Source of the DNA: Actinomycetota bacterium
GTDB taxonomy: Bacteria > Actinomycetota > Nitriliruptoria > Nitriliruptorales > Nitriliruptoraceae
Reading direction: 5' to 3'
Assembly: GCA_017852335.1 (NCBI GenBank)
Contig: JAFMLG010000005.1
Coordinates: 1 to 52,240 of the forward strand
Length of the DNA stretch: 52,240 nucleotides
The position numbers and the translations under genes are program-made. Shown in pieces: positions 8,064 through 15,988 of this stretch. Under the pieces are notes generated by a model, which was given only the letters and a program-made list of their open reading frames with translations, was not told where the DNA came from and ran no database searches. The first letter of the stretch is position 1, and every line of letters begins with the position of its first letter.

Positions 8064-9944
8064 GTGCCGCCCGAGGCCACCCTCCCGTCCGACGCGGACG
8101 TCCCGGTCGGACCGCCGCACGCCCGCCGCTCCGGTCCCCTGCTCCGCATCGGTCTGGTGCTCGGCGTCCTGGCCGTGGGTGCGGCCCTCGCGGCCGTGGC
8201 CGCCGCCCCGGCGGGTCGCGTCCTCGTGAACGTGCGGGTCGGCGACGTCGCGATCGGGCGCCTCGACGCGGCGGGCGCGACGGCGGCGCTGACCGCGGCC
8301 GCGGACCGCGCGGCACCGCCCCCGCCCCGGCAGCTCGCGATCACGACGCCCGACGGCGTCGTCGCCGTCCCGACCGCGGACCTCGGCGTGCGCCTCGACG
8401 TCGGGGCGACCGTGGCTCGGGCGCTCGCGCTGGGGCGGACCGACCGTCCGGAGGACCTGCGCGTCCGGCTGACGGCGCTCCGGACCTCGACGACCGTCCG
8501 ACCCGTGCTGGCGGCGGACGCCGGCGCGGTCAGGGCGGTCGTCGACGCGCTCGCGGACGGACTGGACCGCCCGGCCGACGTCGGGGACCTGCGGATCGAT
8601 CCGGAGACCGGGCGCGTCGTCGTCGTGCCGCCGCGCCGCGGGGTGGCGGTGGACCGCGACGCCGCGACCGCCGCCGTGATCGCCGCCCTGGCCGACGGAC
8701 GCCGGACCGCGGTGACCCTCCCCGCCCGCGTCGTGCCCGCGGCCGCCCCGTCCGACCGCATCCGCACGCTCGGCGCCCGGCTGGCCGACGCCCTGGCGCG
8801 GGGACTGGTCCTCGTCGGCGACGGCGGACGGATCCGGGTCGAGCCGGCCGACCTTGCGGCCGCGGCCTCGATCGTCGCCGGCACGGACGCGGACGGACGC
8901 CCGACCCCGGAGCTCCGGCTCGACCGCTGGACGGTCGCGCGGACCGTCGGGGCCCGGCTCGTCGCGGCCCTCGAGCGGGACGCGGTCGACGCGGCGTTCG
9001 TGGTCCCGTCGCCGCCGCGGTTCGCCGCGATGGGCACGACCGCGTTCCGGCCCCGCGCGGTCGACGTCGCCGTCGACCCCGGCCGGACCGCGCGCCGCTT
9101 CCGGATGGACCGCACGGCGCGCCAGCTCGAGCGGCTGATCGTGACCGGCCGGCGGACGGCCGCGGCGGACCTGCTCGAGCTCGCCCCTGCCGTCACGGCC
9201 GCCGACCTCCTGGCCCACGCGGCGCCGACGCACCTGCTCGGGACGTTCACGACCTTCCATCCGGCGGGCGCCGACCGCAACGTCAACATCCGCCGGCTCG
9301 CCGACGAGCTCGACGGGACGCTCATCGCACCGGGCGCGGACCTCAGCGTGAACGGCGTCTCCGGCGAGCGGCGCTGCGAGGACGGCTACCTGCCGGCAGG
9401 GACCATCCTGTTCGGGGAGCTGGTCGACACGTGCGGCGGGGGCGTCTCGCAGTTCGGGACCACGACCTACAACGCGGCGTTCTTCGCCGGGCTCCCGACC
9501 CCGCAGTGGCAGCCGCACTCCTTCTTCATCGGCCGCTACCCGATGGGACGGGAGGCGACGCTGTCGTACCCCGTCCTCGACGTCCGGGCGACGAACGACA
9601 CGGACGGCTGGCTGCTGGTCCGGACCTCGCACACGCCGACGTCGGTCACCGTCGCCCTGTACGGACGACCGCGGTGGGCGGAGGTCCGGGCCGTCCACGG
9701 TCCGGCGACCGACCCGACGCCGTTCCCGACCGAGCTGCGGCCGGCCGACGACCTCCCCCCCGGGGAGGAGCGCGTCCTCCAGCCCGGCGGGGACGGCTTC
9801 ACCGTCGTCGTCCTGCGCGAGCTGGTCCCGCCGGACGGCGGTCCGCCGACCGTGGAGCGACGCCGGACCGTCTACCGGCCGCAGACGCGGATCGTCGAGG
9901 TCCCGCCGGGACCGGTCGCGGTCGTGCCGGCGCCGCCGGGCTAG
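8064..9944 (+). CDS. VanW family protein with peptidoglycan-binding-like repeats
   Basis: A 626-residue secreted or membrane-anchored protein. A cytoplasmic N-terminus (1-28) is followed by one hydrophobic helix (about 29-48). Two extracellular repeats follow that resemble the putative peptidoglycan-binding domain 4 common in VanW and YkuD proteins (about 65-180 and 225-330). The VanW domain is at about 400-540, with the conserved CGGGVSQFGTTTYNAAFF stretch. The family is linked to cell-wall and glycopeptide phenotypes but its activity is not established. The GTG start has GGAGG 6 bases upstream. Its stop shares the bases CTAG with the opposing HIRAN gene. Confidence 0.85.
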   Translation: MPPEATLPSDADVPVGPPHARRSGPLLRIGLVLGVLAVGAALAAVAAAPAGRVLVNVRVGDVAIGRLDAAGATAALTAAADRAAPPPPRQLAITTPDGVVAVPTADLGVRLDVGATVARALALGRTDRPEDLRVRLTALRTSTTVRPVLAADAGAVRAVVDALADGLDRPADVGDLRIDPETGRVVVVPPRRGVAVDRDAATAAVIAALADGRRTAVTLPARVVPAAAPSDRIRTLGARLADALARGLVLVGDGGRIRVEPADLAAAASIVAGTDADGRPTPELRLDRWTVARTVGARLVAALERDAVDAAFVVPSPPRFAAMGTTAFRPRAVDVAVDPGRTARRFRMDRTARQLERLIVTGRRTAAADLLELAPAVTAADLLAHAAPTHLLGTFTTFHPAGADRNVNIRRLADELDGTLIAPGADLSVNGVSGERRCEDGYLPAGTILFGELVDTCGGGVSQFGTTTYNAAFFAGLPTPQWQPHSFFIGRYPMGREATLSYPVLDVRATNDTDGWLLVRTSHTPTSVTVALYGRPRWAEVRAVHGPATDPTPFPTELRPADDLPPGEERVLQPGGDGFTVVVLRELVPPDGGPPTVERRRTVYRPQTRIVEVPPGPVAVVPAPPG

Positions 9945-10399
9945 CGCCGCGGGAGGCGACGCCGGCGGGTGCCCGGGGGCAGGGTCCGGAGCGACGGGCG
10001 CCGGCCCGCCGCCGGGGCGGCGCCGACCGGCTCCGGCAGGGTGATGCGGAGCCGGACGAGCGGCCGGCGCCACCGACCCTCCGGCTCGTCGACCCAGCCG
10101 TGGAGGACGCCCTCGACCTCGGCACCGGCGTCCATGCGCGGTGCCAGGCGGGCCGCGACCGTGCGGTCGAGGTACCCGAGCCGCCACCGCGGACCGTCCG
10201 CGTCGGCCAGCCAGACCCCGATCGCGAGGGGGTCGGCCGGGTTGCCGGGCTCGCGGCGGAGGGCGACCGGGGTGTCCGGTTCGAGCTCCGCCGCGCCGCC
10301 GGGGGGCAGGGCCGCGAAGGCGTGACCGCGGACCGGCGTGTGGAACTCGACCGGTGCCCGGACGACCGGGGCCGTCCTCCGCGCCGTCGTCCGCACCAC
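9941..10399 (-). CDS. Stand-alone HIRAN-domain protein
   Basis: About 152 residues from the GTG at 10399 (a second GTG at 10396 is equally possible, and an upstream ATG at 10489 would overlap the nuclease gene). The core (about 22-122) has the HIRAN pattern: VRGHAF, then RREPGNPADPLAIGVW, then GYLDRTVAARLAP. HIRAN domains, known from HLTF and related SWI2/SNF2 proteins, bind the 3' end of single-stranded DNA at stalled forks and damaged sites. Both tails are basic, and the C-terminus ends in an arginine run, fitting nucleic acid contact. It follows a RecB/Cas4-like nuclease by 31 bases, so the two may act together. The stop overlaps the VanW stop. Confidence 0.75.
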   Translation of the reverse strand: MVRTTARRTAPVVRAPVEFHTPVRGHAFAALPPGGAAELEPDTPVALRREPGNPADPLAIGVWLADADGPRWRLGYLDRTVAARLAPRMDAGAEVEGVLHGWVDEPEGRWRRPLVRLRITLPEPVGAAPAAGRRPSLRTLPPGTRRRRLPRR

Positions 10400-10430
10400 C
10401 GCCGCGCCCCCGCGTCGCCTGCGGCGGACG

Positions 10431-11378
10431 CTACTCAGCGGGTGCGACGGGGCAGTCGGACCGGCGCCGGCAGCCCCGGCACCACCCACCGCCGCGCAGC
10501 TCGTCCGCCTCCGGCCCGGGCAGCATCCGGGCCGCCTGCAGGATCGCGTCGGCGACGCGGTCGGCCGCGGTCGCGAGGACGGCCTCGGAGAGGTCCTCCG
10601 CCTCGACGCGGCCCTCGGTCACGTGCAGCGTCGCCCACCGGAACGGCGGCACCCCGTCGCGCAGCGTCAGCAGCAGCGCGTAGAACCGCAGCTCGTCCCG
10701 CTCCTGCTGGCCGCGCGGCATGCCGGTCTTCAGGTCGACGACCAGCGTGCGGGCGCGGCCGTCCCGGGCGGCGCTGGTCACCATCAGGTCGGGGACGCCC
10801 TGCAGCCGCACCGCGCGCCCGCCGAGGTGGGTGCGGACGCGGCCCTCGGCCACGACCCGGAGCCCCGGCACGTCCAGGTCGGGCCAGACCTCGCGGAACG
10901 CCGCGAGGAGGCCGGCGACCTCGCCGACCATGCGGTCGCGCTCGTCGGGGGGTCGGACGTTCAGCCACGACGCGAGGGAGGTCGGATCACCCGGCCGGTC
11001 CGAGGCGAGGCGGTGCCAGGCCGCCGCGGCGACGCGCTCGGCCGGCTCACCCCGGGCCCCGTCGACGTCCTGCTCGATCGCCGCGTGGGCCAGCGTCCCG
11101 CGGGCGTTCGCCCAGGCGTGGACGTACGGCTCGGGGTCGCGCTGCAGCCCGTCGCAGGCCAGCCGCGACAGCCGGGTCTTCGTCACGACCAGCGGCGCGG
11201 TCCGGGCCGCCGCCTCCCGCGCCGCCAGCCAGGCCCCGACCGCAGCGGTCGTCCGGGCCAGCAGGCGCTCGACGAGGTCCGGGGCGACCGAGGGGCGGGG
11301 CGCCCCCCAGCCGAGGACCTCCTCGACGAGCCGCGCCTGCGCCGCCGTGGTCGTCGGCGGCCGGGCGGGGCCGGCCAC
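10431..11378 (-). CDS. PD-(D/E)XK nuclease of RecB/Cas4 type with a predicted [4Fe-4S] staple
   Basis: A 315-residue nuclease. The catalytic series is complete: H98 (GTLAHAAIE), E178, D197 (GVPDLMV), D215-x-K217 (VVDLKTG) and a QxxxY helix (225-233). One cysteine before the core (C75) and three after it (C300, C303, C309; WCRGC...DC) reproduce the one-plus-three arrangement that binds a [4Fe-4S] cluster in AddB and Cas4. These enzymes cut single-stranded ends. No helicase or CRISPR genes are near. The GTG start at 11378 lies 2 bases after the gltB stop, so it is probably read with gltB; a HIRAN gene follows. Confidence 0.85.
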   Translation of the reverse strand: MAGPARPPTTTAAQARLVEEVLGWGAPRPSVAPDLVERLLARTTAAVGAWLAAREAAARTAPLVVTKTRLSRLACDGLQRDPEPYVHAWANARGTLAHAAIEQDVDGARGEPAERVAAAAWHRLASDRPGDPTSLASWLNVRPPDERDRMVGEVAGLLAAFREVWPDLDVPGLRVVAEGRVRTHLGGRAVRLQGVPDLMVTSAARDGRARTLVVDLKTGMPRGQQERDELRFYALLLTLRDGVPPFRWATLHVTEGRVEAEDLSEAVLATAADRVADAILQAARMLPGPEADELRGGGWCRGCRRRSDCPVAPAE

Positions 11379-11380
11379 GG

Positions 11381-15988
<4,608 letters not shown>

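Follow-up and report, generated by a model that had tools for sequence, protein, structure and literature searches.

Why does a small stand-alone HIRAN protein follow an iron-sulphur (Fe-S) type nuclease in an actinobacterial genome, and what could the two proteins do together? The question was raised by a stretch of 52,240 nucleotides (the window), which is contig 34 of an 82-contig, 1.7-Mb metagenome-assembled genome (MAG) of Nitriliruptoraceae; the sister Nitriliruptoraceae MAGs are L101, L117, and L121. Its minus strand encodes a PD-(D/E)XK nuclease of 315 amino acids (PF12705, RecB/AdnA/Cas4-like; positions 10,431–11,378) and a HIRAN-domain protein of 152 amino acids (positions 9941–10,399), both defined via Pfam, a codon-based gene call, AlphaFold2, and Foldseek. 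An earlier note, made from the sequence alone, had described this pair with the same coordinates and the same 31-base spacing as were obtained in the new gene call. We read the two genes as a chromosomal two-protein module for the handling of DNA ends or DNA junctions and put the probability of this reading at roughly 45%.

Conservation and Linkage of the Nuclease–HIRAN Pair

Among the 35 genomes of the family, both genes were found in 27, the nuclease alone in two (genus g3), HIRAN alone in one (at a contig start), and neither gene in five. In total, the nuclease was present in 29 and HIRAN in 28 genomes, each in a single copy. In all 24 genomes with both genes on one contig, the nuclease preceded HIRAN on the same strand, and because it recurs in every one of them the adjacency is more than chance. 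The genes lay within approximately 360 nucleotides of each other in 22 of these 24 pairs, the other two being separated by 0.6 and 1.8 kb. The gene upstream of the pair depended on the genus (gltB in g1, a pair of thiamine pyrophosphate enzyme genes in g9, and rhodanese-DsbA in most others), and the nuclease and HIRAN genes remained together while it was swapped.

In the set of 397 genomes of the phylum, the nuclease profile matched 93 and the HIRAN profile 37, with strong HIRAN matches (>100 bits) confined to Nitriliruptoraceae. HIRAN adjoined the nuclease in 11 of the 80 named loci, all 11 from Nitriliruptoraceae. The pair is conserved but specific to this family. The neighborhood survey across actinobacteria proposed in the earlier note was therefore borne out within the family and not beyond it, as judged from the 397 phylum genomes and the 69 named relatives without a HIRAN neighbor.

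Within the class, sister families had the nuclease gene two to three genes from Ku, with LigD on the other side of Ku, in the block order LigD-Ku-FxsA-nuclease-HAD. Six loci of the Egibacter/Nitriliruptorales type (L085, L086, L087, L113, L115, and L176) carried LigD-Ku-FxsA-nuclease-HAD-UvrD/HRDC blocks without HIRAN, and such a block is a double-strand-break repair neighborhood around a HIRAN-less nuclease. Ku as a constant partner of the nuclease was rejected, the linkage being limited to the sister families, absent from the window's genus, and accompanied by FxsA and HAD in the same block.

The Nuclease and the Loss of Its Active Site

The nuclease scored 54.8 bits against PF12705 PDDEXK_1 (curated cut-off 22) and the small protein 37.5 bits against PF08797 HIRAN (cut-off 24.7). 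Profile searches, the check on which the earlier note had staked its domain assignments, thus recovered both families, and the predicted folds agree. The AlphaFold2 model of the nuclease had a mean predicted local distance difference test score of 89.4, and Foldseek matched it best to the AdnA nuclease domain (E 6.7e-7), followed by ACE1, Dna2, AddAB, and Cas4; a search of the Protein Data Bank chains with the nuclease sequence gave no significant match. The catalytic set H98, E178, D197, D215-x-K217, and Y233 is intact in the window. In the intact relatives, H98, D197, D215, K217, Y233, and the cysteines C75, C300, C303, and C309 were invariant and E178 nearly so. The cysteines show the 1+3 arrangement of the Cas4/AddB type (N-terminal C75 and C-terminal C300, C303, and C309), and in the window nuclease they would probably hold an Fe-S cluster. 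The motifs listed in the earlier note were recognized except one: the H-E-D-DxK residues, the tyrosine, and the 1+3 cysteines stood, but QxxxY did not, the residue four positions ahead of Tyr233 being Glu229, with Glu or Asp there in the intact relatives, i.e., (E/D)xxxY.

At least three of the six catalytic positions (H98/E178/D197/D215/K217/Y233) were changed in 11 of the 27 HIRAN-paired nucleases, which belong to five genera, and in one further paired nuclease only E178 was changed, to Asp. The site was lost and the cysteines retained in G006, G007, G018, G030, and G012; both were lost in G013, G015, G024, G034, and G028, the end of the last being cut by the aligned stretch, and the degraded nuclease of G026 was truncated by its contig end. 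The tree indicated at least two origins of the catalytic loss, with G012 separate from the main group; the HIRAN gene tree was poorly resolved. The ratio of nonsynonymous to synonymous substitution rates (dN/dS) for close pairs of degraded nucleases was 0.18 (G018/G030) and 0.28 (G024/G013), and 0.14 and 0.22, respectively, for their HIRAN partners. By these values, both genes are being maintained, the degraded nuclease next to an intact HIRAN. When nine degraded genes were aligned with that of the window, about forty columns were invariant.

Nearly all of the 69 named relatives without a HIRAN neighbor had the full site, some with Glu in place of Asp215 as the motif allows, and the exceptions (L152, L155, L165, and L176) look fragmentary, divergent, or frameshifted; because these relatives were retrieved by conserved patterns, the contrast is skewed in favor of intact genes. 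The nucleases found without the pattern bias, nine from sister families and two from g3, were all intact. The trimming of ends that the earlier note had ascribed to such nucleases is hence not the whole function, because 11 of the 27 genomes with the pair have lost the site while both genes persist.

In one locus, L065 (genome G029), the HIRAN frame next to an intact nuclease is broken by a stop into two pieces, either through true decay or through an assembly error.

The HIRAN Protein and Its Substrate Pocket

The core of the HIRAN protein was well predicted by AlphaFold2, and Foldseek placed the HIRAN domain of HLTF on top (E 2.4e-6), followed by the bacterial lp_0118 (E 1.8e-5). The basic tails mentioned in the earlier note include a real and conserved C-terminal tail, PPGxRRRR, in which P142, G143, and R147 are invariant.

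Of the HLTF pocket residues, the equivalents of N91 and D94 were retained, Y93 was replaced by Ala, and H110 by Tyr; in our own alignment, R71 corresponded to Ala and Y72 to Phe. The HIRAN domain of HLTF binds 3'-OH ends, and the R71E mutation prevents binding; another HIRAN mutant is N90A/N91A (PMC11366124). Stacking on the bound dinucleotide involves Y72 and Y93 (PMC4666394). Judging from the sequence, it is plausible that the HIRAN protein binds DNA, but a specificity for 3' ends as in HLTF is not secured. The reading of 3' ends, which the earlier note had stated for HIRAN, is not transferable from HLTF because the R71 and Y93 equivalents are Ala, though N91 and D94 are retained. Phe142 is missing from most bacterial HIRANs of the HipN/HipL kind, and the HipN of actinobacteria is without most DNA-contact motifs (PMC8262856). 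No functional characterization of a stand-alone bacterial HIRAN was found in the literature searched. Bacterial HIRAN proteins were reportedly predicted in 2006 to recognize damaged DNA.

Host Genome and Neighboring Genes

On its upstream side the nuclease gene is adjoined by the gene of a GltB-type large subunit of glutamate synthase (positions 11,381–15,988, minus strand; gene call and neighbor scan). The glutamate synthase, nuclease, and HIRAN genes form, in this order, a minus-strand run in the codon-based gene call, the first two lying 2 bases and the last two 31 bases apart, and the glutamate synthase and nuclease genes are probably co-transcribed, in the window's genus only. On the other side, the gene of a VanW/PG_binding_4/G5 protein (positions 8064–9944, plus strand; open reading frame and Pfam) converges with HIRAN, the stop codons of the two genes overlapping in CTAG at positions 9941–9944. 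This gene is a synteny marker that stays next to HIRAN family-wide, and we do not think that it belongs to the module.

The neighbors scanned, between approximately 3 and 22.6 kb, comprised the genes of glutamate synthase, the VanW/G5 protein, a Na/Pi cotransporter, PhoU, threonyl-tRNA synthetase, a thioesterase, IlvD, an acyl-CoA dehydrogenase, and a CoA-transferase, together with unassigned genes. As the earlier note had stated, neither helicase nor CRISPR genes were found among them, and a genome-wide search did not find Cas1 in the host genome. In the genome-wide searches, the first PF12705 pass missed the window's own nuclease. Assemblies of the window's genus, which are without Ku, measured 1.1–1.7 Mb, versus 2.3–5.6 Mb in other members of the family, and retained the nuclease–HIRAN pair.

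Comparison with Known Systems

The window nuclease shares the H-E-D-(D/E)xK-Y set with AdnA of the mycobacterial AdnAB, Cas4, ACE1, Dna2, and AddAB, and has 1+3 cysteines like Cas4 and AddB. It differs from AdnAB and AddAB in the lack of a fused UvrD-type helicase, its 315 residues making up the nuclease domain only, and from the AdnA/Cas4 group in an N-terminal extension of about 60 residues ahead of the first cysteine. An identity with Cas4 was rejected on a PADLOC Cas4 score of only 13.5 bits and the lack of Cas1 in the genome, and an identity with DruK of Druantia on the housekeeping neighbors, among which there was no other Druantia component.

A further stand-alone PF12705 protein of the same phylum, the RecB-like nuclease of the Rv2119 type, is overexpressed after mitomycin C treatment in a recA deletion strain (PMC8151990). 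Its homology to the window family is distant (E ~1e-13), and a likely Rv2119 locus has TrmI and HisG next to it. It belongs to a distinct subfamily, and orthology was rejected, the window genome having a separate Rv2119-type gene (G000:C65; 33% identity to the Rv2119-like query, E 2e-28); in BLAST, the window nuclease query matched none of the other PF12705 loci of the genome, G000:C65 included.

The HIRAN protein has the same fold as the HIRAN domains of HLTF/Rad5 and lp_0118, but it is stand-alone, with neither helicase nor RING. FAN1-like eukaryotic proteins combine HIRAN and VRR-Nuc, a PD-(D/E)XK nuclease, in one protein (PMC7762302). They likewise join HIRAN to a PD-(D/E)XK enzyme, but of another nuclease subfamily, fused, and in eukaryotes, and we claim no homology of the pairing. 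FAN1-like proteins are not known to have an Fe-S cluster. In the HipI-HipN and diDNase-HIRAN-HipA operons, bacterial HIRAN genes adjoin enzyme genes, one of them a nuclease (PMC8262856, PMC11706625); there the partners are a DEDD dinuclease or a kinase in a mobile or defence-like context, whereas the present pair is core and vertical. HIRAN fused to or beside nucleases is thus an already known kind of arrangement (VRR-Nuc, PMC7762302; diDNase-HIRAN-HipA, PMC11706625).

Other HIRAN proteins were noticed in the phylum. An actinobacterial genome of approximately 1.8 Mb encodes a 1208-residue fusion of RecJ (DHH-DHHA1-RecJ_OB), HIRAN, and DEAD/Helicase_C (L191:3606-7232, minus strand), and possibly the same protein accounts for HIRAN matches in long open frames (1147–1279 residues) from further small genomes of this phylum. 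A HIRAN-GIY-YIG fusion of 311 residues is encoded at L193:2482-3417 (minus strand), and at L192:3597-5369 (plus strand) a formamidopyrimidine-DNA glycosylase gene is closely followed by that of a 192-residue stand-alone HIRAN protein.

Proposed Function and Alternative Explanations

The conserved order, the co-occurrence, and the survival after catalytic loss make a two-protein complex, in which binding is as important as cutting, the simplest reading. The nuclease fold of the AdnA/Cas4 type, with its probable Fe-S cluster, would hold a DNA strand close to the active site, and HIRAN would be the DNA-reading partner that, in repair, directs the nuclease to free ends or to branched or regressed DNA. 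Trimming of the bound strand is what the complex would do in most genera. Loss of the active site, accompanied in some genomes by loss of the cysteine cluster, has taken place in at least two lineages, where the pair would persist as a binding-only complex. The physical complex, its DNA substrate, its role in repair, and the order of events are what we infer from these comparisons. A link to double-strand-break repair is suggested by the Ku/LigD linkage in the sister families together with the HIRAN-RecJ-helicase fusion elsewhere in the phylum. Of the two roles that the earlier note had considered possible for an end-recognition and processing module, repair is still the best reading, whereas defence found no support in a single-copy, vertically inherited pair in a housekeeping context. 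We also put forward, tentatively and as doubtful, that in Nitriliruptoraceae a Fe-S nuclease with relatives in the Ku/LigD neighborhood turned more than once into a catalytically dead DNA-binding scaffold, which together with the stand-alone HIRAN would sense or clamp reversed forks or DNA ends.

Several observations weigh against the module. No fusion of the nuclease with HIRAN was found; PafBC-type (TTGTCRGTG-N8-TANNNT) and LexA-like motifs were not above background upstream of 32 nuclease genes; R71 and Y93 of HLTF are not retained in the HIRAN protein; Ku was not found in the window's genus; and the Ku–nuclease linkage is itself shared block synteny, with FxsA and HAD in the same block. 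In addition, HIRAN–VanW is as syntenic as nuclease–HIRAN, so the linkage may partly be an inherited neighborhood. For this last reason the strongest rival is that two independent repair-type proteins have merely shared an operon since the ancestor of the family, which we consider possible but rather unlikely. The synteny on that side extends to HIRAN-VanW-M23, the nuclease and HIRAN of two genomes are 0.6 and 1.8 kb apart, and the nuclease is found in the g3 lineage, as in every other family, without this HIRAN. On the other hand, the two genes stayed joined in several genera in which the upstream neighbors were swapped, no genome of the family has HIRAN without the nuclease save the one at a contig edge, and catalytic decay affected lineages with the HIRAN pairing and, a few fragmentary or divergent cases aside, not the 69 HIRAN-less relatives, a set picked by patterns and thus biased.

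The degraded nucleases could instead be slowly decaying relics, the real system being the active enzyme with HIRAN. They sit on long branches of the tree with at least three catalytic positions changed at once, and decay does occur, as in G029 with its broken HIRAN frame despite an intact nuclease. We find this improbable in view of the open frames in 11 genomes of five genera, the dN/dS values of both genes in the close pairs, and the invariant columns described above. Even less probable is that HIRAN restrains the nuclease as a regulator, like the HIRAN-bearing predicted antitoxins (HipS-HIRAN proteins) beside HipA-like kinases (HipN; PMC8262856). The tight position downstream of the nuclease fits a cognate regulator, yet an antidote would be expected to decay along with a dead nuclease, and HIRAN scores highest there (225–228 bits in g11, whose sequences are rows in the profile); moreover, an intact nuclease without this HIRAN is carried by g3 and by every other family. 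Models of a pure antidote and of pure trimming both fail because HIRAN is retained with a dead enzyme. An anti-phage defence module is the least likely of all and appears very improbable. Weak PADLOC matches (DruK, 39.6 bits, a PF12705-type profile; PDC-M03B, 13.9 bits) and HIRAN genes elsewhere near predicted defence genes (PMC11706625) would suit it, but the pair is single-copy and vertical in one family, its neighbors are housekeeping genes without another Druantia component, and the genome has no Cas1. A mobile or viral origin was rejected, no relatives of the nuclease being found in viral contigs or plasmids, which speaks against defence as well; the corresponding searches with HIRAN gave one viral match of 33% and one plasmid match of 42% only.

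Significance

The combination of HIRAN with a Fe-S nuclease of the AdnA/Cas4 type, and the repeated catalytic loss in it, was not found described in the open literature, a scope that excludes most subscription journals; the 2006 HIRAN paper may mention related pairings. In most of the family a stand-alone HIRAN has a fixed enzyme partner, and the genomes in which this partner is catalytically dead constitute a natural experiment. Such natural mutants separate binding from cutting and make the function of a bacterial HIRAN directly testable. They also provide an example of a Cas4/AdnA-type nuclease that is without catalysis, and in some genomes without the cysteine cluster, and still under purifying selection. 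The pair in Nitriliruptoraceae may thus have, in part, the job of holding DNA instead of cutting it.

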